63,319 bases of DNA, from IMG/VR virus record IMGVR_UViG_3300031232_000004, positions 1 through 63,319 of that record. One strand, written 5' to 3'. A program made the translations under genes and the position numbers. The notes under the pieces were generated by a model. The model made no database searches. It saw only the letters and a list, made by a program, of their open reading frames with translations, and had not been told where the DNA came from. Position 1 is the first letter of the stretch. Each line of letters begins with the position of its first letter. The stretch comes from a virus. Shown here piece after piece: positions 3,001 through 49,416 of the stretch.

Positions 3001-5074
3001 GGTATCTTTGTGTGCAACTGCCGAAGAACGTTTTGATAACGCCACCACCGTAAACGACTGGTTTAAGTTGTCTGATATTTCTCAATACAGCGATTTTTCA
3101 GAAACAGGTGTGACCGATTTTATAGAACACTTCCCAGGAACTGTGTCTAGGATTTCAGCCGTAGACACTAACTTTAGATGGATCGAAACGATATCTCTTT
3201 CCCCCGATATAGCGAACGTTACTGGATCCACCCAATTCAAATTTAAAAAAGACGAAGATTTGTCGGAATCATTCCAAATTTGGGCATCAAATAACAGTAA
3301 CATTAGCACACTAGTAACGGCCATGAATGGTCTACCCCTATGTCCTATATCAGGGGTGTTTACTGGATCGGGGCCTGCTACAGTAACTGCTCCTACCTGG
3401 GAGTCGACTCCAACCTATTTCAGGTTAAAGGACGGGGTTAACTGGGTCTCAACCACTACAAACCCTGCTACAATATCCGACCCTACTGGTTTCACTCTGA
3501 AAAAATCGGTTGACACCACTCTGTCTTCGTATGCTAATGATTTTTCTAATGAAATTTTTTATATTGGCCCTGCTTTTGCAAAAGATATCACAAAATGGTT
3601 AAACACCAAGGCTATTACTGGACTTAGCACTTGTGCTTCAATCGTCACTTCAAACTATAACGAAAAGGTCCAAATATCATCCAATGTCCTAGGACGAGAG
3701 GGGTCGGTATTTGTTGAGGGTGGTAAAGCCAATATGGCTACAGCCCAAGTATTGGGGTCGGCCCAACCATCTCAATATAGCGGACTAGCCATTAAAAAGG
3801 CCCTTACGGTTCAAATTAACGATGCTGAAACCGATGGTTTTACTGGTGGTCAATGGGTAAAATTAACTAATACGAATAACACGTCCAAAGTCAACAATTT
3901 CACCAACACTTGGGGGGACAACAATAAAATTCAGTATATAAGCAGATACGGAGACATTATAGCTACATCCCCTGTTTATAGAGAGATCCACATCGCTCAA
4001 AACGCCTTAAATTATGTCGGTTTTGAGAAGATTGGAGACTACACAGCCATTATACTTTACAAAGGTATGAACCGAGATGTTGAAGCCCCAAATGAGTCCG
4101 GGTATGTGAGAATATATTCAACAATCGCTACTACGGTTTCTAGTGCGAATTGTGGAGTCTTTAAGATCCTAAGAGTTGGAGAAAATGAAAGTTGTGTTGT
4201 GTTGTGGATTCATACTCCAAATACACAAGAAGAACAAGTCCGGGCTGGTATAAAATGCTATTCCGCAGACTCCATTATGCCTGGGGATACTATTACCTTC
4301 TTGACCGACGAATTTGGGATTGGTAATAAAGGATCTTGGACGGTATCAAGTATTGGGGATAATTTTGAAGGATCTCCCGCCGATATTCATCTTGATGTAA
4401 CCAATAAAGCTACCGTCGTCTTCAGTGGATATCTAAATACAAATATTGAAAAAGTTGGGGTTAGTACCTCTACTCCAATGTGGGGGATTAAAAAGGTTCT
4501 AGGAATCCTCCCCGCAGTTACTGGAAATGCTTCCGCCTATATGCTTCTTGACAACGATGACGACTATAATATGTATTCTGAGTCCGCAGGAACAATTATT
4601 CAGTCTCTAGGAAAGATGGGATTCGATCAGACCATTGTCCATGGACGAGACGCCTATAGATATAATACAGGGCTTATCGCCGAATCTAAAAAGGTGGTTT
4701 ATGGAGATCGTGCGGCCCCCGAGGACTACCCAGGTATGGCAGCAGAAGGAGCGAATATCCAGTTCGCCGGGCCTACTATTAAGCGAATCCAAATATCGGT
4801 TGCGGTCAGACTAACAAGCAATGTATCTAATCGAGACATTGTTGACAATGTAAAATCCACCATAGCTGGATATATAAACTCCCAACCGATTGGGGTGAAT
4901 ATCCCCTTGTCGGGTATGGTATCAGCCATAGAATCTTTAGATGGGGTTTCGTCGGTGGCTGTGGTATCGCCTACTTATAATGCCTCTAACGACCTAATCT
5001 TAATATCAAGTGGTGAAAAGGCCATGATTATAAATTCTAGTTCTGACATTACAGTCAGTACGATTGGAATTTAA
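2..5074 (+). CDS. Baseplate J-like protein with Kelch repeats (5' partial)
   Basis: The frame is open to the window edge and the first in-frame GTG (position 5) has no convincing RBS, so this is probably the 3' part of a longer gene; about 1690 residues are visible. Residues ~117-350 carry Kelch-type units (GR..HTA..L..G, V.V.GG, AEIYDP...W) that should fold as a beta-propeller. The last ~130 residues resemble the baseplate J C-terminus (a sheet followed by YINSQPIGVNIPLSG, then an I..L.GV..V segment), the wedge component of contractile-tail baseplates. The stop overlaps the next start by one base. The baseplate role is inferred from that terminal domain and from the neighbours; the propeller may bind a host glycan or another tail protein. 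Confidence 0.7.
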   Translation: MVEGDTLTLGTNWPEAYVQTPTISDGINVTSDSNYWVTIDDPSAKKLENSFIGANTTALPTTPTLSSYVADVHPITPNCKKGDWVLFNDPGFSGTWSNKPFRTETDQAITFEAKQSVAGRFGHTATALTPATGKLSTVLLVGGLSIPGPGIGAQGALKGRNVIKTAEIYNPNTGVYTPTAAMITPRAYHTATLLGDGRVYVCGGFNSSGVVISSAEIYDPVANIWSAVTALSEARAHHTAVLLASGFVLIVGGWSGAYPLNTTVEYNAGSNAYVNPRTMISTRYGHSAIVLAGGDVIVAGGVNFSGSNLITLATAERYTASSHSWAGISAMPVGRAFFGFQTVSANRLIAIGDLGYPRLDNQFQESAAQETFNTYLATTDTWGGTTSINAGSSWTAGEKVRVCQPTLGRSLTTGKVCLFNASFQTIAGENKGVNLIFDGTEWDKTATNTFSNQIPGLSGCVGVGLTGNSTDTVAWFGGVPTVYKNTVDVLDNRTSGAPAAITTLYDATLNSWLMPNPLFSSVILSTDRLIVTRSETPPQKILVDTNSGVSYMASTLSDAINSNEIHAEAEVYKTSKIRLSSPSLIDGAILPIDKDFILPSLGTTLASSKIAQLATTVSSSDLKTPFDFTIYNTGETSSGVLGFGQTSSVLKWTYDIDPQATVLGLKSYMMGSEALNSTHFGNIKNTRNKISSVSTSGTVTDPLLQQPVTATSLFSLRSSTQEYTPGHPVALMEPMKFAYNDKLILTIDGNTDTQRYTVPMFRKVIPNDSTYGNTIYLKDGDNNNNQIQAAFGNIYSFNDFVLLSRARAISNAANATLRVLWRYSRYGAEGNSVGVRFVPPIGASTSLSYSTNVVQDRTHAFLDAPQITVDLALPAGAKRTSSTIVPSTRLMWTATPVSSDNTVQKNLFALGFQVSQGSRATSGAVTSLRLTWPSWAGSTGVEESDVLYYQGVAPSPTTLLSGQFVVQSVTAGAGYDTVTVKALKLHDGTSSWGTATNPGSVSLCATAEERFDNATTVNDWFKLSDISQYSDFSETGVTDFIEHFPGTVSRISAVDTNFRWIETISLSPDIANVTGSTQFKFKKDEDLSESFQIWASNNSNISTLVTAMNGLPLCPISGVFTGSGPATVTAPTWESTPTYFRLKDGVNWVSTTTNPATISDPTGFTLKKSVDTTLSSYANDFSNEIFYIGPAFAKDITKWLNTKAITGLSTCASIVTSNYNEKVQISSNVLGREGSVFVEGGKANMATAQVLGSAQPSQYSGLAIKKALTVQINDAETDGFTGGQWVKLTNTNNTSKVNNFTNTWGDNNKIQYISRYGDIIATSPVYREIHIAQNALNYVGFEKIGDYTAIILYKGMNRDVEAPNESGYVRIYSTIATTVSSANCGVFKILRVGENESCVVLWIHTPNTQEEQVRAGIKCYSADSIMPGDTITFLTDEFGIGNKGSWTVSSIGDNFEGSPADIHLDVTNKATVVFSGYLNTNIEKVGVSTSTPMWGIKKVLGILPAVTGNASAYMLLDNDDDYNMYSESAGTIIQSLGKMGFDQTIVHGRDAYRYNTGLIAESKKVVYGDRAAPEDYPGMAAEGANIQFAGPTIKRIQISVAVRLTSNVSNRDIVDNVKSTIAGYINSQPIGVNIPLSGMVSAIESLDGVSSVAVVSPTYNASNDLILISSGEKAMIINSSSDITVSTIGI

Positions 5075-8000
5075 TGTTAACCATAAAAGAACTGTCGATA
5101 AGTACGGGGGTACCGACCATTGAAAAATGGTTTTGTGTTTCCAATCTTGAAATTATAGATTCCCGTATTGTAAGGATTTGGTTTACCCAAAAACCAAGTG
5201 ACGCTTCCCTTAGCTTAAGTTATTTTACCCTTACTGGGGGAACCACCTCCAGTATCAGTAGAAATACAGTTTCGGATCACTGTTTAGACCTATGGGTAAC
5301 AAATCTGACCCAAGGCCAATTCACCTTAGTGATTTCTGGTTCCGTAACCTCGTATCGGGCATCTGTAGCCTTAACCTCGACGGCTATTGTTTTTGATACT
5401 ATAAACGTAGCCGAAAATACCGTCAATAACGTCAATAACGTCAATCCAGAATCCATTATGAACTGGATTCCGGAAACGTTTAAAAGTAAACCAAAATGGC
5501 AAGGTTTTATACAGGCCTTAGATACCGGCAACCAGATCGTAAGGGATTTAGCCCAAAACGTTTTTAACCAATTATACCTATATACCGCTACAGACTCTTT
5601 CCTTAATACTCGCGCAGCCAATGTCGGGGTAAACAAACCATACAAACTTGGTTTGTCTGACGAGTCTTTTAGATATCTGGCTATTTCGGTCTCAAACCAA
5701 CAAATAATCGAAGAAGCTTTCCTAAACATAGCCGATATCTTATACGGGAAAGAATCTGTAAGGGCCTACCACAAAGCCGGAGGGCCAGGCCCTTATCGTT
5801 TATACGACGGCATGACCCTTACCATAGGGGTAGATGGGGGCAGCCTCCAGACCGTAGCCATTAGCTCTGAGCGCTATGTAAACATAGCCCAGGCCACAAC
5901 CCAGGAACTGGCAGCCGACCTTACTATTGAATTTGAACATGCTGGAATAAAAGCGGTACCTCTTAATATAAACAATACTTTATATATATATATAAAGTCA
6001 AAAGGGTTGGCTTCCAGCCTTACCATTGCTGGTGGAACTCTTCTAACTGCCGTCCCCTTCGAAGCGGGGGGAACACCCTTCTTTTACCAAAATCCAAACA
6101 CCTATGAGTCTATTTTTAGCATAGGGGCCGATCATAACTATACTTGGCACGTGGCCAATCCTTCAACAGGGGTGGTCCGGTTTGAGTCCCACGCCCAGGA
6201 CCATGTAACACATCCGTTTCATTTCCACGAAATCTATCCAGGAGATATCCTAAATATAACCGGCCCCGTTTTTCCAGCTTCGGTGTGTGGATCGTGGGTG
6301 ATATCAGATGTAAACCAGTACTATTCTGGGTCTAATCTCTATTCTTATATTGACATAAAATCGACGGCAACGGGGCTTCCTTCAACGATTGTTCAGAGTA
6401 TTGTAGAATCTTTTGTTGTAGTGAAGAATGTAACAATAAACTGTTATAACGATACCGGATGGGTGGCTGTTAATCCTTCCAGTGGGGAGGCTAATATATC
6501 TATCCCTTCCACTTCCAAAGCGGTACAAAGAAGCCCAAACAATGGAGCCTATCTAAACACGCCCTATACCTGTGAAACCAACTTAAGTTTAGTCCAGTAT
6601 AAAAATCAAGGCCAATCCTACGCAATTGGAAGATTAAACATCGGAGATTTTACTACCGTCCCAGGAATAAATGAAGGCCTAGAAGTAACCAACTTCGTTT
6701 CTACTACCACCCCCTTTAATTCCCCCTACAGTGAATATGGATCTCAAAGTTGGTTTTTAGAAGGTTCTGACCCGGCTTATGCCCTATTTGGGTCGGCCAG
6801 TAGCGGAGCTATTGAAAAGAACTCTCCAACGTCCTGGACCCAATATGCCTGGACATTTGGAGGGGTTAGTGGCCACCCTAGTTGGACTATAAGTAATCGT
6901 GGCTGGTTCCATCTTTGTACTAAAAACAGGACTAATAATGTAGTTGGATCTACTATATCCGCTACTTTTACCCACACAGCCTTTGCTACCATCTTCCCCA
7001 TCGCTATTACCATAAAGTCTGAAACTCGTAAAAACCAACTATTTATAGCCGGTGGATTTGACACCTATCTTACTTCTGTAAATGGTAACACATACTTTGC
7101 AAATGGAGTTTCCAGTACAGTATCTATCGCTACAACAACCCCCTACAATATGATTAAATCGGGGGCTTGTGAAATCCCCACCCACCACACAATTCTGGTA
7201 TGTGGAGGGGCTTTGACTGGATTTTTTGCAACTGCGGCAACAGATGTAGGTTATTTCTATAACCTTACAACAGATTCTTGGTCCCCTATGGTGGGTACCT
7301 TAAAAACAGCCAGATTAGATCACCAATGCATCCTTTTGAACGACGAAACGATCTTGGTAGTGGGTGGGAGAAATGGGTCGTGGGAAACTCCCGGAGCTAC
7401 ACATCCATCCAACACTCTTATAGGAAATGTCCTTAATAGTTGTGAACTTATCACCGTAAATGGAACTACCAATTCAGTAGCCCCGGTCTCAACAGGTAGA
7501 ATGGCCTATAAGAGGTTTGCTTTTGGTAGTATTGTTTTACCAGATGGACGGGTTTTGGTTGTAGGGGGTGTGGGATATCACGGAAACTTTAGTGCGGCAT
7601 TGTCTGAAAACCAAAACCAAAACGAGCTAAAGTCTGCTGAAATATATGATCCAGTTACTGGGGGATGGTCTTCGATCCCAGATATGTTGGATACCCATAG
7701 TTCCTGCACTGTTTCATATAACCCAGATCAAAATCAAATAATGGTTTTTGGTGGGCTGAATTCTATAAAAGCCGAATACCTTGACTTAAATACCATGACC
7801 TGGCATTACAGTGGTAATAAAAGGTATGGTGAATTTTTCCCCATCCTTACCGCAGCCTTTGGAGCACCTTTTACTATCCTAGATGAAATAGGGTGTATCT
7901 ATGGTGGGGGATATTTAGCTGGTGGGGTGTGGTATTCGAATACAAAGTCTTGGACTGTAAATAATAACTACCCAAATAAGGTAAATTACAACGGAATAAA

Positions 8001-14176: not shown

Positions 14177-15631
14177 CTACAGACTCTTCAAAGCCCTTTC
14201 TCTAATTGTTTGGAACTGTTCGTGCTTAATAAACTGACCATCCTCCCAAACTGGTTGAAGGATACTTTGGTTTTCTTGTTCTTTGGTTGCTTGATCTACC
14301 AGTTTTAGTCCACTTTCGGTCTGAAGAACAGCTAGGCGACCCTTAGCGCTATTTTTCATACCATTATCGGTAATAGGTTTCTTGAAAATATCAATCCCCT
14401 TGCCATCAATTTGGACCCATGTTGCCTTCATAGCAAAACCAAATGTGTCGCGGGTAACATATTGATAAGTATAAGATCCGATACCAAAAACAATATTACC
14501 AGAAGAAAAACCCTTCTTTTCAAGAAGGTTTAGAATTGTTTCGCATCTTTCTGGGGTAATAGAATCTCCATAGATACATCCAATATGAGAATCTAATGCC
14601 TTAAAGCTTTTGGAAGTAATAGTTCCTCCAAATACGTCCCAAAGGCATTCAACAGTGCCCTTATGTGCTGGAGTCCCAATTGGAGCGTCTGGATCTCCAC
14701 AGATAATCTTAACAGGATCTCCACTATCTGGACGAATAACAACCTTTCCGTTCCTACTTAAAATCTTGTCTTTCAAAGAAGGAATAATTTCTGTCAATAC
14801 CTTCCAGAGATCCCAAGTATCGGATACAATACTTACAACACCTTCCTTATAAATGTCTAGTAGGTTGGAAAAAGTTTCACATTCGCTATTTTCACCACCA
14901 GCACACATTACACTGTGTTCGGTTGCAGCAACGGATCCTCCAATAAGGCCAGGTTTATGGTTGGGGTAATAATCCTCAACCAAATCAAGGGCGGGAATAG
15001 TGTCTGTCCCCGTAAAGAACAGTAGATGGGCTGCTCCGCTTAAAGAAGCGGCTTCTGGGCCAGCCATTCCACGAAAAGAAAAATCATGTCCCTGCCATCC
15101 AACAAAACCTGGGTCAGCACCAGTTCTTTCGGTGGCAGCGTAAATTAGCTTTCGATACCTAGAAGCTGTTGTGGCCGAGGTACAAGGAAGCCATAAAACA
15201 TTCGACAAAATAGTTTCAAAATAATTTACCAACCAGAAAAAGTCTGGGTGGGTGTTTTCAATTGTAAGCATAGGAACACGCAGGGGGACCTTACTACCTT
15301 CGGGGACGGCCCGAATCAAAAGGGGTAAATACCCTAGATCGTGAAGAGCCTTAATATGATCTACACCGACAGAATTGGGGCCTAAGTATCCATTAACACG
15401 ATCCGCATATGCTTTGGCTACAAAAGAAATATGCTCATTAAAAAAGCTCTTGGAGAATTCTTCTTGAAGATACTTCTCTAAAAAGTATTGAAGGCCAAAA
15501 AAATAGACTTCATCTACTCCATCTACCCTAGAAGACCTTGGAGTCCAATTCGAATAAACATATTCGGTTTTTGCAGGGTATTGTCGGCGGTGATCTAGCT
15601 TGTATCCATCGATCAAAGTAACTGGATTCAT
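14177..15631 (-). CDS. nampT: Nicotinamide phosphoribosyltransferase
   Basis: 484 residues, the usual NAMPT length. Family signatures include the N-terminal IDGYKLDHRRQYP and Y-SNWTPRSSR, the central SFRGM and FFTGTDTIPAL, a SVAATEHSV active-site stretch, VSDTWDLWKV, VIRPDSGDP, and GIGSYTYQ near the nucleotide pocket. It converts nicotinamide + PRPP to NMN, the rate-limiting NAD+ salvage step. Start preceded by AAGGAG. It lies 16 nt downstream of PRPP synthetase in a two-gene operon, so the phage supplies both substrate and enzyme. Likely purposes are feeding NAD-dependent enzymes or refilling NAD+ emptied by host defences. Confidence 0.93.
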   Translation of the reverse strand: MNPVTLIDGYKLDHRRQYPAKTEYVYSNWTPRSSRVDGVDEVYFFGLQYFLEKYLQEEFSKSFFNEHISFVAKAYADRVNGYLGPNSVGVDHIKALHDLGYLPLLIRAVPEGSKVPLRVPMLTIENTHPDFFWLVNYFETILSNVLWLPCTSATTASRYRKLIYAATERTGADPGFVGWQGHDFSFRGMAGPEAASLSGAAHLLFFTGTDTIPALDLVEDYYPNHKPGLIGGSVAATEHSVMCAGGENSECETFSNLLDIYKEGVVSIVSDTWDLWKVLTEIIPSLKDKILSRNGKVVIRPDSGDPVKIICGDPDAPIGTPAHKGTVECLWDVFGGTITSKSFKALDSHIGCIYGDSITPERCETILNLLEKKGFSSGNIVFGIGSYTYQYVTRDTFGFAMKATWVQIDGKGIDIFKKPITDNGMKNSAKGRLAVLQTESGLKLVDQATKEQENQSILQPVWEDGQFIKHEQFQTIRERALKSL

Positions 15632-15647
15632 TTTTTCTCCTTGTTTG

Positions 15648-16502
15648 TTAACGGGTCATTGTTTCTACGAAATCTAAGACTACCACACCAACCCCTTGCT
15701 GTAAAGGAATAGAATCGGTAGTATATATCTTTTTAAAGATTTTATTTAAAGCTACAAAGCCTTTACTGAATAGCCCGTGGGTTACGTATAGAGACACTTC
15801 CGCCCCGGCCTCTTTTAGACTGTTACCCAGTCCTATAAAAGTCCCGCCGCCATCACAAATATCATCTACGATTAACAGATCTTTTCCATATAGAGAAGAA
15901 TCGTAATTATGACCAAAGCCTGTAATTGCTCCAGTAGAAATATCCCTTGTTTTATACCCGTTTACAATCGGGATGTTCAACAACTTTGCCACACCCGCCG
16001 CTCGTTTTTCAGATCCAGCATCAGGGGCAACAATTGCCGAAAAAGATGGGAACCTAGTCCAACACATATTAAAAACATCGTCCACCCCGTAAACTTTACA
16101 GTGATTTAGCAATGCTGGAGTCACTTCAGAGTGGGGGTCAAGGACGTGGACGGCTTTAAACCCAACAGAATTGATAATTTTTGCTATCGTTTTGACCGTA
16201 AAGAGGTAGTCCCCCTTCTTATTTAACCGATCTTGGCGTCCACCAGGCATAAATGGCAATACCAATTCCAACCAAGCCCCTGTATTTCTTTCAATATAAG
16301 CTTCCGCCCAAGCAATCCCAGCAATAAAATCAGACATACAAAAAGGACGTAAGACAAGGTGGGAAACGTTTCCTATTTTTCCCCACGTAGAAGGATCTCC
16401 ACTAGGGAAATGGATATAGGGAACATTGTCGGGGTAAACATTGATGGGAATTGAAGTAAAATTATGAAGAGTATCTTTAACGACCATATGTGAACAAAAC
16501 AT
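15648..16502 (-). CDS. prs: Ribose-phosphate pyrophosphokinase (PRPP synthetase)
   Basis: 284 residues, slightly shorter than bacterial Prs (~315). Visible motifs are LVLPFMPGGRQDR (ATP/ribose-5-P region), VLDPHSEV, VAPDAGSEKRA, and the PRPP-binding loop DLLIVDDICDGGGTFI. It makes PRPP from ribose-5-phosphate and ATP. RBS AAGGAG; the promoter lies directly upstream (16520-16548). Co-transcription with NAMPT shows the intended use of the product; PRPP also feeds nucleotide synthesis. Confidence 0.93.
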   Translation of the reverse strand: MFCSHMVVKDTLHNFTSIPINVYPDNVPYIHFPSGDPSTWGKIGNVSHLVLRPFCMSDFIAGIAWAEAYIERNTGAWLELVLPFMPGGRQDRLNKKGDYLFTVKTIAKIINSVGFKAVHVLDPHSEVTPALLNHCKVYGVDDVFNMCWTRFPSFSAIVAPDAGSEKRAAGVAKLLNIPIVNGYKTRDISTGAITGFGHNYDSSLYGKDLLIVDDICDGGGTFIGLGNSLKEAGAEVSLYVTHGLFSKGFVALNKIFKKIYTTDSIPLQQGVGVVVLDFVETMTR

Positions 16503-17639: not shown

Positions 17640-17643
17640 TAAA

Positions 17644-17672
17644 AAAGGCCTATAGTTTTTCTATAGACCTTT
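17644..17672 (-). terminator. Bidirectional stem-loop terminator after the tRNA cluster
   Basis: A 12-bp stem built from AAAGGTCTATAG and CTATAGGCCTTT around an AAAAA loop (minus strand), followed by further T residues. The other strand also gives a T-rich tail. It ends the tRNA transcript just before the exonuclease promoter. Confidence 0.75.
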
Positions 17673-17678
17673 TAGAAT

Positions 17679-17780
17679 TGGCGGGGTAGGTAGGATTGAT
17701 ACCTACATTATCTACTATTTGCTAGTTGTATTCATAGAACTCCTAGTTGTCCTAGGCGCGTATAATTCCGCCACTACCCC
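17679..17780 (-). tRNA. Atypical long Leu-like tRNA, anticodon not assignable
   Basis: The acceptor stem GGGGTAG/CTACCCC pairs 7/7, followed by G and an encoded CCA. The D-arm region GTGGCGGAATTATACGCGC looks like tRNA-Leu but lacks the D-loop GG. The T-stem GTAGG/CCTAC is perfect, but its loop is TATCAAT instead of TTCRANY. The middle is ~10 nt too long, contains three CTAG motifs and a repeated ACAACTAG, and I cannot place a normal 7-nt anticodon loop. It could be a degenerate tRNA, a tRNA that needs processing, or a tRNA mimic. Confidence 0.5.
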
Positions 17781-17786
17781 ATAAGG

Positions 17787-17858
17787 TCTGAGATGAGAGG
17801 ATCGAACTCCCATAACCCTGCTCCCAAAGCAGGTGGCCAACCATTGGCCCAATCTCAG
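17787..17858 (-). tRNA. tRNA-Pro (TGG)
   Basis: Complete cloverleaf: acceptor CTGAGAT/ATCTCAG, D-arm GGCC-AATGGTT-GGCC, anticodon stem CCTGC/GCAGG around loop TTTGGGA (anticodon TGG), variable GTTAT, T-arm GGGAG-TTCGATC-CTCTC (one G-U), discriminator A. CCA is not encoded (ACCT follows). It is the one conventional tRNA in this cluster. Confidence 0.92.
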
Positions 17859-17903: not shown

Positions 17904-18055
17904 TAGAAACTAATAGCAACTTTTAAGATACCGAATCAAATTAATACGGTGATGTCCTTCCGCTAGACGACACCCCCACATTTGGAGGGGATGGAGAGAA
18001 TCGAACTCTCGTCTCAACCAGTTTTTTTCAGTACCGGTCGATCTACTATTTTCTA
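17904..18055 (-). tRNA. Putative circularly permuted tRNA gene 2
   Basis: Reading leftward, the 3' half comes first: variable GAGAC, T-arm GAGAG-TTCGATT-CTCTC, acceptor 3' strand CATCCCC, T, CCA. An 8-nt spacer that includes the CCA separates the acceptor strands, then the 5' half follows: GGGGGTG (5' end at 17977), TC, D-arm GTCTAGCGGAAGGAC, A, TCACC. The two acceptor strands pair 7/7 (one G-U). No T-arm lies further downstream and no matching 5' half lies upstream. Flanks are co-linearly complementary in four short helices (17904-17909/18050-18055, 17913-17916/18046-18049, 17927-17929/18041-18043, 17930-17933/18035-18038), so the ends of the halves can be held together. The break lies in or next to the anticodon arm; the anticodon stem has a mismatch and the anticodon is not assigned. 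Confidence 0.65.
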
Positions 18056-18072
18056 TTTTTGGTTTAAGTTTC

Positions 18073-18214
18073 GGAGTCAAGTCTAAAATTAAGTAAAACC
18101 CATTAAGTGCGTTTACCAGTTTCGCCACCTCCCCATACAGTGGGGAGGGAAGGATTTGAACCTCCAGTTTCTTATCGGTTTTATTAGATTAAGTTTTAGA
18201 TTGAGCTTGTCTCC
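18073..18214 (-). tRNA. Putative circularly permuted tRNA gene 1
   Basis: The 3' half precedes the 5' half: ATAAG, AAACT, T-arm GGAGG-TTCAAAT-CCTTC, acceptor CCTCCCC, A; then 6 nt (CTGTAT); then GGGGAGG (5' end at 18134), TG, D-arm GCGAAACTGGTAAACGC, A, CTTAA. The acceptor strands pair 7/7 Watson-Crick, better than either pairs with any other half in the cluster. CTTA/TAAG can form most of the anticodon stem. Flanks form a long interrupted helix: GGTTTTA (18094-18100) with TAAAACC (18177-18183), TTTTAGA (18082-18088) with TCTAAAA (18194-18200), CTTG with CAAG, CTCC with GGAG. CCA is not encoded. Variable loop length says class I; the anticodon is unknown. Confidence 0.65.
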
Positions 18215-18219
18215 ATATT

Positions 18220-18957
18220 TTAACTACCCAACAGGTAGCTAAAGAATTTGTTTCCGATCCGGATGGATTCAGCCTCTTCTTCATTAGCTGATTCCCGGGC
18301 ATACTTCACAGCCTTAATCAACTTTTCACACTTTGCAACTAGGGCCTCCTTCCGTGGAACGGGAATCGCCCCACTAATACGAATGTTAGACCAAACACCT
18401 ACACGAACATCTTCGGTCACCTTTTCAACTTGAGCCGGATGCTTGTCCGTTGCTGGATATAGGACAACAGGTTTAAGGATCTTCTTCGTCTTAACAGTAT
18501 CAACCTTTTCGGTCTTATAAAGATTCTGGTTTGGGTCCAAAGACCACGACTCCGAAACATCCAGGGTTGGAAGAGCCCGAAGCGTAGTATGGAAATCGGT
18601 AAGAGTCTTTTCCATAAAGAGAAGGAAAGTGGCCGGTACGCCCCCCACCAAAACCTCCCCATCTACCACCACATCCCCCTTGGCCTTACAATTAGCATAG
18701 TCCTTGGTAGCAGAGATATCCATAAGTTCAGCCATCCCAGTTTCAACCTGCTTCAATAGGTCTTCAACCTTGTACTGAACTTGCTTACGCTCTTCGGGCA
18801 GCTTTTCACCGTCCTCTGCGTCGGGACGATATCCCTTAACAAAACCATTAAACAGATCAGACTTTTGAAGAGTATGGTAGACTCCGTTAATGATATCTCC
18901 TTGAATACGACCCTTGATACCTTTTTCTACTGCGATGACTTGATTTAGTTTTTGCAT
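18220..18957 (-). CDS. Conserved phage protein of unknown function
   Basis: 245 residues beginning KLNQVIAVEKGIKGR and containing PEERKQVQYKVEDLLK. This start resembles a conserved protein family I recall from large actinophage genomes (annotated there only as a DUF); the link needs a search. No enzyme motif, membrane segment or signal peptide is visible; the centre has a VVVDGEVLVGGVPATFLLF strand block. RBS AAAGGA before the ATG. It is the last protein gene before the tRNA cluster, and its stop lies a few bases from the flank of permuted tRNA 1. Confidence 0.7.
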   Translation of the reverse strand: MQKLNQVIAVEKGIKGRIQGDIINGVYHTLQKSDLFNGFVKGYRPDAEDGEKLPEERKQVQYKVEDLLKQVETGMAELMDISATKDYANCKAKGDVVVDGEVLVGGVPATFLLFMEKTLTDFHTTLRALPTLDVSESWSLDPNQNLYKTEKVDTVKTKKILKPVVLYPATDKHPAQVEKVTEDVRVGVWSNIRISGAIPVPRKEALVAKCEKLIKAVKYARESANEEEAESIRIGNKFFSYLLGS

Positions 18958-27571: not shown

Positions 27572-28363
27572 TTAGGTCCCCTTCCTAAAAAGGGCCACGA
27601 TATTCCCCTGGGTAGGTTCCCAGTTTGAAGGAAACTTATAGTTGATAGAATCGCTAAACAAGGGCCGGAGTTCGGCACAATCCTGTAAAGTTGAATTCAA
27701 GACGATTACCGGCAAGGTCTTCCCATAGAGCCCTCGATCCAGGACGTTCTTCAGGACGGCCTTACGGATATACTTATAATTAAAGCTTTCCCCGGTCGTG
27801 AAGATAGATCCCCGAATATGATCTACTAGATCATTAAAGGTAGGACACAAAACATCCTTCATTATAGGGGCCTTAGGATTACTAATCAGTTCCAATTCAT
27901 TACCAAGATGCCGAAGCTCGGTAACAAGCATGGCATATTGCTGGGTTCCAAACTCTCGCTGTACACCAAAGCTTGGCTCGATGTTCTTTGCAATGTCCGA
28001 GTACATCTTTCGAGCGTCGATAACGATCCCCCCACTCTTTTCAACATACAAGGCGGTACTAGCTACGGCCTGGCCATCTCCACCCGCAAAGATACCCTTC
28101 AAACGTGTCGGAATAGTGGCATGTTCTAGCTCTTTAACCAGAAGTTCAAGCTCTTCCTTGGCTGAAGCTATACGGACCTCCCAACCGGGCCGCATACGTG
28201 CATCAATAGATTCAATAGAAGTATTTGCGATCTTATCAGTAGTGTTGATACGATCAAATAGTTCCTTCATAGGGTTCACTGGTTCTGCTTCAGTGGCCCC
28301 AATCGCTTCTTGTGTAGTAACTACTTCTGGAGTAACATCTTCGTCAGTGCTTTTTCGTTTCAT
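27572..28363 (-). CDS. Hypothetical protein upstream of SSB
   Basis: 263 residues. An acidic, Thr/Glu-rich N-terminus (~1-40) precedes a helical domain, including an EELELLVKELEH coiled-coil stretch. No catalytic motif is recognised. The start overlaps the DnaE C-half stop by 4 nt. A replisome accessory role is plausible from position only. Confidence 0.55.
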   Translation of the reverse strand: MKRKSTDEDVTPEVVTTQEAIGATEAEPVNPMKELFDRINTTDKIANTSIESIDARMRPGWEVRIASAKEELELLVKELEHATIPTRLKGIFAGGDGQAVASTALYVEKSGGIVIDARKMYSDIAKNIEPSFGVQREFGTQQYAMLVTELRHLGNELELISNPKAPIMKDVLCPTFNDLVDHIRGSIFTTGESFNYKYIRKAVLKNVLDRGLYGKTLPVIVLNSTLQDCAELRPLFSDSINYKFPSNWEPTQGNIVALFRKGT

Positions 28364-30987
28364 TGTTCTTCCTTGCTTACTGGACCTGATATAACCTCGA
28401 TCTGATTAATACTAAAATTCCACCCCGGAGATCTAGTTAAGATTGCCACTACTACCGATCCTTTTTCAATGGCCTTAACAGAAGGTTCCATTGTTCCATC
28501 TTTCTGAGGCCATTTTACCACATCGCAGCTAAAACCGCAAGCATCAAGATGGAATACACGCATCTGCTTAGTCTTATTCTGATATGCCTTATCTTCAATA
28601 TCCACGACGTAGGCCAGTACACATACCCGGTATCCGTTATCGGGAACATAGTCGGTTTCAGATAACTCTTCAAACTGGACACCGCTAATAACAACGGCCT
28701 TTGTTGAGAACTCTTCGTTAGTTTTAAAATTGGTATAGGAATAGTTGTAATATAAAGATTCTTCTTCTTTAGTGATTTTAGAGTGTTGAACAAGCCCACG
28801 GAAATCAATACTGTAAACAGGTAAAGTTTTTTTAATTAGCTGGTAGCGCTCTAGTTCATTGGGGGACTTATATTTAGTTTTTGTGATAGATACCTTTCCC
28901 CCGGCCTTTTTACAGGCCGCTTTCAGTGCCTTTATATAAAAATCCATGATTTCTGGGATAGTATATTTGATATCGAACAGGGGGTCTAGGAGCCCGGCCG
29001 CAGCCAAGGTGTAAATAGTCCCTACAGTAATAGCTGACTTTCCCCACACATTGTTTTCAGCCGTTGCGATCCGGTGTTTTACAATCCCATCGGCTAAATC
29101 TTGAATATTACTATAGGGGGCATATTTACATAGTTGTACGTGGGCTGCTTCTCCAATACCATGTAAGAGTGACAAAGGGGCTTTGATCTTAGCCCCGGAA
29201 ATAGTAAAGTTATTCACCGGTTCTTTTAGGTTAGGGAGTTCAGTAAAGATGCCGCAATAGGGCCAGAACTTGGTGGGGATTTCAGTTTTCTTAGCGTTTT
29301 GGAGCACACCACACCACCACTCCAGGTTATAGTGGTGTTTCAGGTAGGCGCATGCGTAAGAGATAAAGGAATAGGCCGTTGCATGTGAACAATTGTGGGC
29401 AACAGCCCCATTCTCAAGGAGAAAATTATGGGTCTTGGGTATTTCCATATCCCAAACGGGCTGGATACAAAGGCTTCTTACATTAACTATTTTTTGTTGG
29501 ATCGAACAACCGTTTTTTTTCCTAATTTCTATATCGCCCTTGAAGATTAATTCTTTTAATTCAATCCACTCTTCATCATACAAAAATCTATGGTCTTCAG
29601 TAGCTACATCTTTACTCCCATCAAATAATTCCACCTCAAAAACTTCCTTACGACCCATCTCTTTTACCCACAGAGGATGGACATAAATAATACTACCGTC
29701 TTCTTGTAGAGTAGCTACAAGATCTTTTACGGTTACTTCTTTTATAGGAACATTGCCTCGAAGGGTTTTAATCTTTTGATCTTCATAGAGGCAGTTGAAA
29801 CCGTAGGCCGCCCAACTCACCAAAGAGGCCCATACCCCTTGGGCCTTTTCTTTACCAATCTTGGCCCCGGCCCGTTCCATAAAGAACTTATAGGCCGCGT
29901 CTACCTTTTCCTTTTTCTTTTTGGCTACATTGCCTCGAAACTCCTCCGCTTCCCCTCCTGTACACCCGGTAAGCTCCTGGTAAACCCTTTGTAGGGATTC
30001 TTGGAAGATCAAAATACCTTGGGTTTCTGGGACTAGTTCTTCTAGGATAGGTAGAATATCGGGGCTCTTGGGAAGCCCTTGAAGGCGTTTGGCGTATTCC
30101 ACTAAGGCATTATGTGTCCCCAACCCTTCCCCGTCCTGTACAATGTAATCAAGCGGCCCCGGCCGGTCTAGGGCTGTAAATTCGGCCATAGCCTGGATGC
30201 TGTTAATACCCGGGGTTCCGTCTGGCCGTGTAAAGTCAAAATACTTAAGCCATTTTTTGGCCGATGCAGTATTGAACTGAAAAACTGTTTCTGTAATACT
30301 TTTACTTACATCTTGGAATACGGCGGGATCTTCTGGTAGGAGCCAAATATTTTTGATGCCTTGTTTGGTGGGGATTTCATCAAATGAAGACGTAGCCCTT
30401 TCATCCGGAGTCATATACCGTTCTCTAATCAGCCCCATACACGATTGAATATCGTTGATTTGATTGACTACTAGGAAGTCCATCTTAAGCCCACCAATAG
30501 CCTCGATATCAGGCCCGGTAAAGTCTGTGACCTTCCCGTCCTTAGTGGTGACAATTGGTGTGAAATCACCTACTGAACGATTAGATATTAGGAAGGCGCA
30601 AGCGTGTTTCCCCTTACTTCTAGGTAGAGATATGGCCATCTTTACCACGTCCCACTGCTTGGGGTATTTTTTGATAAACTCTTTTAAAGCTACATCTGTT
30701 TCGATAGATCCTTGGTGGAAGCCCTCGTCGTTCTCCCATCCTAGGATAAATTCAAGGTCATTCGCCCCTTGTGGGGCTACAGACATTTTCTTTGTTAAGG
30801 CGGCTACTTCTGGGGGGACGGCCCCAAACATGGCCCGGGTAACATCTAGGATGGCTGACTTAAGCTTTAGCGTTCCCACGGTAGATATCTGGGCATAATG
30901 CCCACTATACCTTTCCTCTAACCATCCTGGGAAGTATTTGGGGATGGTTCCCTCCTGAGACGATCTAGTGATTTTTGTAAACTTCAA
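28360..30987 (-). CDS. DNA polymerase III alpha-like, C-terminal half, with cis mini-intein
   Basis: 875 residues before splicing, ~741 after. Residues ~21-55 (GWLEERYSGHYAQISTVGTL and following) continue the DnaE palm directly after the PDID catalytic motif carried by the separate N-half gene. The third catalytic Asp should lie in this half; ALDRPGPLDYI and the AAYGFN/CSHATAYS helix-hairpin region follow. It has no beta-binding or tau-binding extension that I can recognise beyond the final ~200 residues. The gene starts with its own ATG and has no C-intein sequence at its N-terminus. It overlaps the upstream ORF by 4 nt. The two halves must assemble non-covalently or be joined in some other way. 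Confidence 0.85.
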   Translation of the reverse strand: MKFTKITRSSQEGTIPKYFPGWLEERYSGHYAQISTVGTLKLKSAILDVTRAMFGAVPPEVAALTKKMSVAPQGANDLEFILGWENDEGFHQGSIETDVALKEFIKKYPKQWDVVKMAISLPRSKGKHACAFLISNRSVGDFTPIVTTKDGKVTDFTGPDIEAIGGLKMDFLVVNQINDIQSCMGLIRERYMTPDERATSSFDEIPTKQGIKNIWLLPEDPAVFQDVSKSITETVFQFNTASAKKWLKYFDFTRPDGTPGINSIQAMAEFTALDRPGPLDYIVQDGEGLGTHNALVEYAKRLQGLPKSPDILPILEELVPETQGILIFQESLQRVYQELTGCTGGEAEEFRGNVAKKKKEKVDAAYKFFMERAGAKIGKEKAQGVWASLVSWAAYGFNCLYEDQKIKTLRGNVPIKEVTVKDLVATLQEDGSIIYVHPLWVKEMGRKEVFEVELFDGSKDVATEDHRFLYDEEWIELKELIFKGDIEIRKKNGCSIQQKIVNVRSLCIQPVWDMEIPKTHNFLLENGAVAHNCSHATAYSFISYACAYLKHHYNLEWWCGVLQNAKKTEIPTKFWPYCGIFTELPNLKEPVNNFTISGAKIKAPLSLLHGIGEAAHVQLCKYAPYSNIQDLADGIVKHRIATAENNVWGKSAITVGTIYTLAAAGLLDPLFDIKYTIPEIMDFYIKALKAACKKAGGKVSITKTKYKSPNELERYQLIKKTLPVYSIDFRGLVQHSKITKEEESLYYNYSYTNFKTNEEFSTKAVVISGVQFEELSETDYVPDNGYRVCVLAYVVDIEDKAYQNKTKQMRVFHLDACGFSCDVVKWPQKDGTMEPSVKAIEKGSVVVAILTRSPGWNFSINQIEVISGPVSKEEQ
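29392..29793 (-). other. Mini-intein in the DnaE C-half
   Basis: 134 residues (protein residues 399-532). It begins with Cys (CLYEDQKIKTLRGNVPIKEV, block A) and has a block B-like DGSKDVATEDHRF. The C-terminal VWDMEIPKTHNFLLENG-AVAHN ends in His-Asn, and the next extein residue is Cys. There is no room for a homing endonuclease. The insertion splits AAYGFN/CSHATAYS, 3 residues downstream of the classic cyanobacterial split DnaE intein site (Y/CFNKSH). Confidence 0.9.
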
Positions 30988-47493: not shown

Positions 47494-47522
47494 TTGACTT
47501 TTTACGTTAAAAGACTTATAAT
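47494..47522 (+). promoter_or_regulatory. Strong leaderless promoter of groEL
   Basis: TTGACT, 17-nt spacer, TATAAT, then CCGTTTC and ATG (47530). Predicted +1 coincides with the A of the ATG. An upstream ATG at 47494 lies on the -35 and is not a plausible start. Confidence 0.75.
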
Positions 47523-47529
47523 CCGTTTC

Positions 47530-49416
47530 ATGGAATATGTTAAGAATCACACAGCCTACAAAGAGATGGTTTCGAGGGGAGCTAAGCTTGATAAGATTTT
47601 GCTTGATAGCACCAGTGAAATCGCCCGTTTGGTCGGGTCTACCCTCGGCCCAGGTGGACGCCCCGTAGCTATCGAACGCCAAGAGTGGAACCTCCCACCA
47701 GTCTTGACCAAGGACGGGGTTACTGTTTTCCGGTCTCTGGGCTTTAGAGATTCTTGTAAGCAGGCCGTGTTAGAACTTATGCGTGATGCCAGTGTCCGTA
47801 CCGCCGATGAAGCCGGGGATGGGACGACCACGGCTACTATTCTGTCTGAAATTCTATTTCGAAAAACACATGAATTCTGTAAGAACCATCCCCACACCCC
47901 TCCTATCCGTGTAATCCACTCCATTAACCGGATTTGGAAAGAAATCCTAGAACCTTCGATTTCTGATTTTTCCCTGGAATGTGATTTTTCTACTCCCCAA
48001 GGAAAAGAGCGTTTGCGCCAGGTCGCCCTTATTTCGGCCAATGGTGACAAAGAGTTGTCCGAAGCTGTAATCAAGTGCTATGAGATAGCCGGTGACGATG
48101 GGAATGTTACTATTCTTGAGTCTTCAGGCCCGTTTGGATATGAAGTAGAAAAACTAGAAGGATTCCCGGTTCTTACAGGTTTTGAAGAATCTTGTGGAAA
48201 GTTCTTCCCAGTTTTCATTAATGATCAAGCAAATCAACGGGTTATGGTTGATAAGCCGATGTTTATTTTGTTCAATGGCCGGATTTCCGATTGGAATGCT
48301 TTATCTAGGGTGTTAATGAAGCTTCAGGTCGGATATATGTCTGGGGAAATTAAGACCCCTAACCTGGTTGTTTATGCCGCTGGATACGGGGACAATGTTC
48401 TTGCCAACCTAGCCAGTGTTTGGGGGGATGGATCTCAACTCAATATCTTCCCCGCCCTTATCCCTAATCGTGATGCCATCCTTAATGCCCAGACATACTT
48501 CCTAGAAGATTTGGCCGCTATTACTGGGGCTAGTATTTTTGATCCAGGGGTAACTAAATCCTTGGACGATCTAAAAGAAGACGACATCGGGAATCTGTAT
48601 TGGAAGGATGATGACCCCGAGACTAGGGTATTGGTTCCTCAAGGGGTTAAGTTTTTTGAATGTAACAGGTATCGTAGCAATATCGTTGGTTATGCCGATC
48701 CTGAACAGGTCCTGGTTCGGGCCGATGAAATTAAAGCTTCTATTGCTGCTGCTGAATCTCAATATGACCGAATCTATCACCAAGAACGGTACGGTAAGTT
48801 GTCCGGGGGGCTGGCTAAGCTTCGTGTCGTGGGATCTAGCAACGGTGAACTAAAAGAGCGTCGGGACCGGGCCGAAGATGCCGTGTGCGCTGTTCGTGGG
48901 GCGATCAAACATGGTTGTATTATTGGGGGTGGATGGACTCTCCTTGCTTTGAGGCAAAAACTACAAGAATCCCTAAAGAATGGGACTCCGCTAGATATTG
49001 AAATCTATAATGAGATCTTGAATGAAGTATTAGTAGCTCCACTCCTGGTTCTACATTCTAATGCGGGGTATGTTACCCAGGTAGAAAAGACGGAATCTAA
49101 TCCTGATGGCTTGGAAGTAAGTGAAGACATTAATGAAATGTATATGTCCGTTACTGGGAAACTTGACCCTAAAAAGGCCAAGACTTTTGACGTTGCTAAA
49201 GGAAAGCTTGTTAGTGGGCTAAAAGAAGGTATTTTGGATTCTACACCAGCCCTGAAAGAAGCCCTCCGAAATTCCATTAGTATTGCCACTAGTTTGGGGA
49301 CTTTGGGTGGTATAGTTGTCCAGCCTCGGGTAGAAGCCGTTGATAGGCAAGAGGCCCGTGATGCTAAGGACTATGATCGGGCTGCTAGGGAGTTTGATCC
49401 TAACGACAGGACGTAG
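47530..49416 (+). CDS. groEL: GroEL-like chaperonin (Hsp60)
   Basis: 628 residues, longer than bacterial GroEL (~548). Equatorial/ATP motifs: LGPGGRPVAIE, VLTKDGVTVFRSL, ADEAGDGTTTATIL near residue 95, and the C-terminal DAVCAVRGAIKHGCIIGGG. The apical domain is divergent and enlarged (~residues 190-400). There is no GGM-repeat tail. It should fold phage proteins, perhaps a capsid or polymerase subunit that the host chaperonin cannot fold. The start is set by the promoter. A GroES-like candidate is at 57989. Confidence 0.93.
   Translation: MEYVKNHTAYKEMVSRGAKLDKILLDSTSEIARLVGSTLGPGGRPVAIERQEWNLPPVLTKDGVTVFRSLGFRDSCKQAVLELMRDASVRTADEAGDGTTTATILSEILFRKTHEFCKNHPHTPPIRVIHSINRIWKEILEPSISDFSLECDFSTPQGKERLRQVALISANGDKELSEAVIKCYEIAGDDGNVTILESSGPFGYEVEKLEGFPVLTGFEESCGKFFPVFINDQANQRVMVDKPMFILFNGRISDWNALSRVLMKLQVGYMSGEIKTPNLVVYAAGYGDNVLANLASVWGDGSQLNIFPALIPNRDAILNAQTYFLEDLAAITGASIFDPGVTKSLDDLKEDDIGNLYWKDDDPETRVLVPQGVKFFECNRYRSNIVGYADPEQVLVRADEIKASIAAAESQYDRIYHQERYGKLSGGLAKLRVVGSSNGELKERRDRAEDAVCAVRGAIKHGCIIGGGWTLLALRQKLQESLKNGTPLDIEIYNEILNEVLVAPLLVLHSNAGYVTQVEKTESNPDGLEVSEDINEMYMSVTGKLDPKKAKTFDVAKGKLVSGLKEGILDSTPALKEALRNSISIATSLGTLGGIVVQPRVEAVDRQEARDAKDYDRAAREFDPNDRT

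Follow-up and report, generated by a model that had tools for sequence, protein, structure and literature searches.

Tandem permuted tRNA-like RNAs downstream of DUF7873 genes: probable Y-RNA-like tRNA mimics in phages and Streptomyces

Does a phage encode a tRNA gene whose two halves stand in reversed order and, if so, how would those halves be joined? The question is raised by a locus on the minus strand of a viral DNA of 63,319 nucleotides (IMG/VR record IMGVR_UViG_3300031232_000004, positions 1 to 63,319; the whole stretch is called the window below), in which a circularly permuted phage tRNA gene had been predicted from the sequence. The reported feature, called arm A here, is a real permuted structure that goes beyond chance, although in all likelihood not a tRNA. 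A second permuted domain, arm B, follows it, and both RNAs lie directly downstream of a gene encoding a DUF7873 protein. Arms A and B are quite probably a tandem pair of Y-RNA-like tRNA mimics that form a ribonucleoprotein with DUF7873.

The permuted order and its conservation

Read on the minus strand, the window gives the order T-arm, acceptor 3' strand, 7-nt loop, acceptor 5' strand and D-arm (Table 1). All elements of the original prediction, which placed the T-arm/3' acceptor half ahead of the 5' acceptor/D-arm half, were found. The acceptor strands pair at 7/7 positions as claimed, the T-stem pairs at 5/5 with one G-U, and the predicted 6-nt separation corresponds to the loop ACTGTAT, which is the A assigned to the 3' half plus those 6 nt. 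The complementarity ascribed to the flanks was borne out in that the whole 142 nt folds as drawn, with flank helices of 4, 4, 7, 4 and 7 pairs plus a 5-bp stem and an energy of -40.1 kcal/mol versus -27.8 +/- 3.7 in shuffles (z = -3.28). The feature therefore stands, but not as a single gene, since two tandem copies are present, both within a longer conserved structure.

A strict permuted-tRNA scan was run over 43 loci (654 kb) with five shuffles as control, and gave 43 matches over the loci and 0 in the shuffles. The permuted units cluster just downstream of the DUF7873 gene in related phages and sit directly after it in phage records with named hosts; the annotated phage records examined carry no RNA feature over the A/B units. 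Searching phages at the DNA level with the RNA region yielded no match, as expected at such divergence. Within units, acceptor pairing over 34 tandem loci averaged 6.97/7 (arm A) and 6.91/7 (arm B), values that were partly selected by the scan.

Arm B was aligned from 29 copies, the window's own included, over 137 columns (alignment A2). A model-free scan of column pairs found the outer helix 90-100% paired with up to six pair types, and neither this helix nor helix P_a had played any part in locus selection. In the full five-helix structure 90.7% of cells were paired, compared with 58.9% after shuffling and 34-45% after sliding, and double changes numbered 283. Besides the tRNA elbow, the invariant elements are a 5'-side ATCRA and a 3'-side TTAAAYG. 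Conservation thus reaches into the flanking helices, where covariation is strong in B; the flanks of arm A were compared informally only. The original prediction had named a failure of the pairs to co-vary in relatives as one outcome that would speak against it. The permutation-allowing search and the relatives gave the opposite, with both the topology and the flank pairing conserved with covariation.

A covariance model, R1, was built from type-B arms only. In the window it scored arm B at 97.9 bits (a sequence in the training set) and arm A, which was outside training, at 37.2 bits (E 7e-5, 18078-18189). R1 puts B-like arms beside DUF7873 in nearly all viral loci and matches 80/80 bacterial loci, none of which was used for training. 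Among the viral loci with enough sequence, the identical L061 and L063 gave no arm and L110 gave one only in a relaxed scan. Five contigs carried the 3' B motif, and all five were already DUF7873 contigs. The 16S-like word GGGTGAAGTCG found 3' of B is kept in one subgroup and was rejected as a decoding-site mimic because its absence from the other subgroups marks it as a coincidence. In L066 and L067 an apparent endonuclease gene lies between DUF7873 and the RNA, which is kept; in L066 its apparent insertion has displaced the B arm to 4286-4406.

Linkage to DUF7873 in phages and bacteria

Forty viral contigs encode relatives with 31-47% identity to the window's DUF7873 protein, and a profile search found the family encoded in 416 viral stretches and 73 phage records, the hosts of which include Gordonia, Rhodococcus, Arthrobacter, Pseudanabaena, Rhizobium, Vibrio and Klebsiella. 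Phages with many tRNA genes often carry the RNA pair. Bacterial DUF7873 proteins are mostly from Streptomyces, and also from Planobispora, Actinomadura, Sorangium, Ktedonobacterales, cyanobacteria and Armatimonadetes. Of 101 genomes drawn from the family of one DUF7873-positive Streptomyces, 64 carried DUF7873 (in one case as a weak partial match) and 62 the RNA, about 60%, a percentage that holds for that family. All but one of these RNA matches (61/62) lie a few hundred bases downstream of DUF7873 on the same strand, and the sole unlinked match is a partial match to the tRNA core. The Streptomyces locus examined is single, has ordinary chromosomal neighbours and lies outside tRNA clusters. 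The phage setting given in the original prediction is thus correct but not exclusive, as the RNA is chromosomal in most of the sampled Streptomyces-family genomes.

The AlphaFold model of DUF7873 is a confident alpha-beta structure (mean pLDDT 89.8), and fold searches gave no PDB or BFVD match below E 0.001. In the open PMC literature we found no paper naming DUF7873 and no account of permuted tRNA in phages, and no earlier description of the partnership between the RNA pair and DUF7873 was found. Relatives were also sought for the neighbouring exonuclease, and none was found.

Comparison with bacterial Y RNA

Bacterial Y RNA and tRNA can be superposed through a circular permutation (PMC11472068). 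In YrlA the basal stem is bound by Rsr and the tRNA-like domain resembles the D, T and acceptor arms, and the RNA tethers Rsr to PNPase to give an RNA degradation machine (PMC8394870). YrlA (Rfam RF02553; structure 6CU1; partner Rsr/Ro60) shares with A and B a permuted T-arm, acceptor and D-arm carried by a long stem where the anticodon would be, and the circularly permuted tRNA-like module on a stem that marks YrlA is present in both arms. The acceptor is closed in each case, and each may occur as two RNAs beside a gene for an RNA-binding protein. A and B differ from YrlA in their stem motif (ATCRA/TTAAAYG), in being linked to DUF7873 rather than to TROVE and in being carried by phage genomes that are usually without TROVE. 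The window record and 8/9 complete phage genomes carrying the RNA lack TROVE, which is found elsewhere in the genome in 12/19 bacterial genomes; the TROVE/rsr linkage or co-occurrence typical of YrlA is not seen for A and B. Where TROVE is present, Y-like matches, sometimes paired, can adjoin it, as in Streptomyces echinatus (G003 contig 15). In Rhizobium phage RHph_TM21B an RNA linked to DUF7873 lies at 108431; two R1 matches follow 4 kb further along, at 112247 and 112433, immediately ahead of a TROVE gene. The agreement of these TROVE-side matches with R1 is largely confined to the tRNA core, so it is the stem motif that distinguishes the DUF7873 class. The arms are therefore topologically like the tRNA mimics of Y RNAs, yet lack two marks of YrlA membership, the TROVE association and a score above the YrlA threshold (below).

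From these comparisons we infer how A and B may be expressed, bound by DUF7873, connected to an effector and put to use. Each arm would be a long interrupted stem tipped by a tRNA mimic that is joined to it at the position of the anticodon arm. Such an attachment would explain why the T-arm, acceptor and D-arm come in permuted order with the acceptor closed by a loop. Neither splicing nor ligation would be needed and no codon would be read. The arms would be made in one transcript with DUF7873, which may bind the conserved stems with their ATCRA/TTAAAYG loop much as Ro60/Rsr binds the stems of Y RNAs. The tRNA-like tips would dock a tRNA-binding effector or serve as its decoy, and the assembled ribonucleoprotein could tether or redirect RNA processing or decay. 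The original prediction had called for a joining route other than the known ones, but bacterial Y RNA has the same permuted fold and works unjoined (PMC11472068, PMC8394870). We lean, with less assurance than for the tandem mimics themselves, to the broader view that DUF7873 and its mimics are a Ro60-independent ribonucleoprotein parallel to Rsr/Y RNA, chromosomal in most Streptomyces and found repeatedly in phages.

Several results weigh against the Y-RNA-like reading. Although YrlA was the best Rfam match to both Streptomyces arms over the full-length model (31.1 and 26.2 bits, E 4e-5 and 1e-3), these scores of 26-31 bits compare with a gathering score of 69. Scores over 41 genomes were 24-39 bits with none above that cut-off, and the window gave no YrlA match up to E 10. 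No RNA-binding family was matched by the DUF7873 fold. In 67/142 permuted units an encoded CCA stands exactly one base past the acceptor, an arrangement that hints at processing or a recent tRNA origin, neither of which Y RNAs need. In L058 the 5' half of arm A contains a plausible Leu(UAA) arm. L025 has three extra permuted units (4702-4806, 4863-4965 and 5161-5284), two of which have near-identical flanks and differ in having TCT or GCA within CACT[NNN]AATGG, an anticodon-like loop. These two carry A73 and T73, as expected for Arg and Cys, respectively, and the predicted folds of the extra units are ambiguous. The L025 extra units could be true permuted decoding tRNAs, and together with L058 they leave room for joining in some cases. 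Note that the B unit of L025 has an intact tRNA-Met (4186-4262) within its acceptor loop.

Other readings of the arms

A special case of the Y-RNA-like reading, that the tips decoy tRNA-directed nucleases or modification enzymes in phage infection while DUF7873 stabilises the RNA, is conceivable though doubtful. It would fit the frequency of the RNA in tRNA-gene-rich phages and the suggestion that the tRNA-like domain of YrlA may competitively inhibit an anticodon nuclease (PMC7790460). However, B offers no anticodon loop to be cut, and the RNA is also found as the single chromosomal Streptomyces locus away from tRNA clusters.

Another reading makes the arms parts of an RNA in several pieces, after the manner of permuted two-piece tmRNA (Rfam RF04321). 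RNase P and 3' processing would open the acceptor loops, and the pieces would stay paired but unjoined. This seems unlikely. The local order is that of permuted tmRNA, in which the T-arm and acceptor 3' strand also precede the acceptor 5' strand, and the CCA encoded in the loops would suit such processing. Rfam ranks the permuted tmRNA model weakly, at 12.9-17.9 bits versus 47 and over part of the model only. Against it, the D-arms are of the canonical tRNA type with stems, unlike those of tmRNA, some loops are just 4-7 nt and CTTCG-like as fits a closed hairpin, and separate tmRNA genes are present in L044 and in Gordonia phage Phendrix. The arms were rejected as tmRNA itself owing to the weak partial match and the true tmRNA genes elsewhere in these two phages. 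The tmRNA gene of L044, which also carries the A/B pair, is itself permuted (L044:5543-5840).

Still less probable is that the arms represent true permuted tRNA genes, in which the precursor would be cut in the flank helix and its ends joined to give a decoding product, with RNase P and 3' processing trimming the acceptor loop. The permuted tRNA genes of algae and archaea (reviewed in PMC3978253) too encode the 3' half before the 5' half, with an intervening sequence running from the 3' end to the 5' end and a flank helix. A and B have the 3' half first with paired acceptor halves, and the conserved acceptor pairs, the exactly placed CCA and the TCT and GCA units of L025 would all be accommodated. 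They differ from the algal and archaeal genes in that B has no anticodon loop or bulge-helix-bulge, the flanks are conserved as structure and the carriers are bacteria and phages. A 7-nt anticodon loop with U33 was restored in at most 26% of 77 non-redundant B copies in any join register, whereas the same script found one in 91% of the ordinary tRNAs of the same loci. No anticodon loop is evident in the window's arm A, which was judged by eye and is mixed across relatives, and in L006, L012, L021 and L080 a plain hairpin takes the place of the tRNA-like tip of arm A while the flanking motifs are retained. The claim of a tRNA gene with halves to be joined thus lacks support, given the missing B loop, the replaceable tip of arm A and flanks that are themselves conserved structure.

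Bulge-helix-bulge splicing was rejected because the predicted B junction is an asymmetric loop between P_a and P_b in which the column scan shows no helix, so that no conserved helix lies between the two stems. RtcB, the one ligase tested, is absent from the window and from 8/9 complete phage genomes carrying the RNA. A group I intron, which the original prediction had rightly thought improbable, was rejected since the flanks are too short and have no Rfam match. Known self-cleaving ribozyme motifs were sought in the flanks by eye only and none was convincing.

The weakest proposal, a single tRNA-Leu in ordinary order composed of the A 5' half and B 3' half around a 91-nt insert with two orphan half genes beside it, has in its favour a permissive Rfam tRNA match (17986-18134, minus strand, 33.7 bits with a gathering score of 29), 6/7 acceptor pairs and a Leu-like D-arm, but over the 34 tandem loci this order pairs at 4.24/7 versus 3.7 with shuffled partners and about 7/7 in the permuted order, and because the ordinary-order values were free of scan selection the contrast refutes an ordinary-order tRNA with an intron. 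The Rfam match is a misreading that joins halves of two permuted units, and an annotation trap for this RNA class.

Table 1. Features of the RNA locus in the window.
Feature	Positions	Strand	Basis
DUF7873 (PF25283) protein, 245 aa, directly upstream of both RNAs in transcription order	18220-18957	-	Pfam 312 bits, E 4e-93
RNA arm A (reported feature), stem and permuted tRNA-like cap	18073-18214	-	Fold z -3.28; acceptor pairs kept in tandem loci; R1 match
Arm A T-arm, GGAGG-TTCAAAT-CCTTC	18149-18165	-	Sequence and tandem-locus comparison
Arm A acceptor helix, CCTCCCC/GGGGAGG	18128-18148 (18142-18148 with 18128-18134)	-
Arm A acceptor-closing loop, ACTGTAT	18135-18141	-
Arm A TG spacer, between acceptor 5' strand GGGGAGG (18128-18134) and D-arm		-
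Arm A D-arm, GCGAAACTGGTAAACGC	18109-18125	-	Sequence
RNA arm B, second permuted tRNA-like domain, on conserved stem	17918-18042	-	R1 97.9 bits (own sequence in training); family covariation
Arm B T-arm, GAGAGTTCGATTCTCTC	17994-18010	-	Alignment A2
Arm B acceptor helix, CATCCCC/GGGGGTG	17971-17993 (17987-17993 with 17971-17977)	-
Arm B acceptor-closing loop, TCCAAATGT, holding encoded CCA	17978-17986	-
Arm B D-arm, GTCTAGCGGAAGGAC	17954-17968	-	Alignment A2
Arm B TTAAA, 3' half of internal-loop motif ATCRA (18038-18042)/TTAAAYG	17922-17926	-	Invariant A2 columns
Ordinary tRNA-Pro(TGG), downstream of arms	17785-17858	-	ARAGORN; Rfam 54.3 bits
Terminator-like hairpin at end of minus-strand RNA cluster	17643-17673	-	Consensus scan; about 1 expected by chance

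The tRNA-Pro is the sole RNA called in this region by ARAGORN and by Rfam at curated thresholds. A Leu-like tRNA in ordinary order at 17679-17780 (minus strand) has 7/7 acceptor pairs, a Leu-like D-arm and CCA; it has no normal anticodon loop (stem CCTAG/CTAGG, 5-nt loop) and is missed by both programs. Elsewhere the window encodes a DNA polymerase III alpha-like protein with an apparent intein (28360-30987, minus strand; Intein_splicing match below cut-off, typical ends) and a phage Cpn60/TCP-1-like chaperonin (47494-49416, plus strand; Pfam 102 bits). A nicotinamide phosphoribosyltransferase-like gene beside a phosphoribosyltransferase/PRPP synthetase-like gene (14177-16502, minus strand) suggests phage NAD synthesis.

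What looked like an oddity, a permuted phage tRNA, belongs to an abundant class of structured RNAs which standard tools misread as intron-bearing tRNAs or miss altogether. Its near-perfect linkage to DUF7873 gives the first functional lead for this uncharacterised family, and the culturable hosts (Gordonia, Arthrobacter and Rhodococcus phages, and Streptomyces) make the reading testable at once. If A and B are indeed Y-RNA-like, they would provide a Ro60-free comparison for the purpose of tRNA mimicry by Y RNAs.
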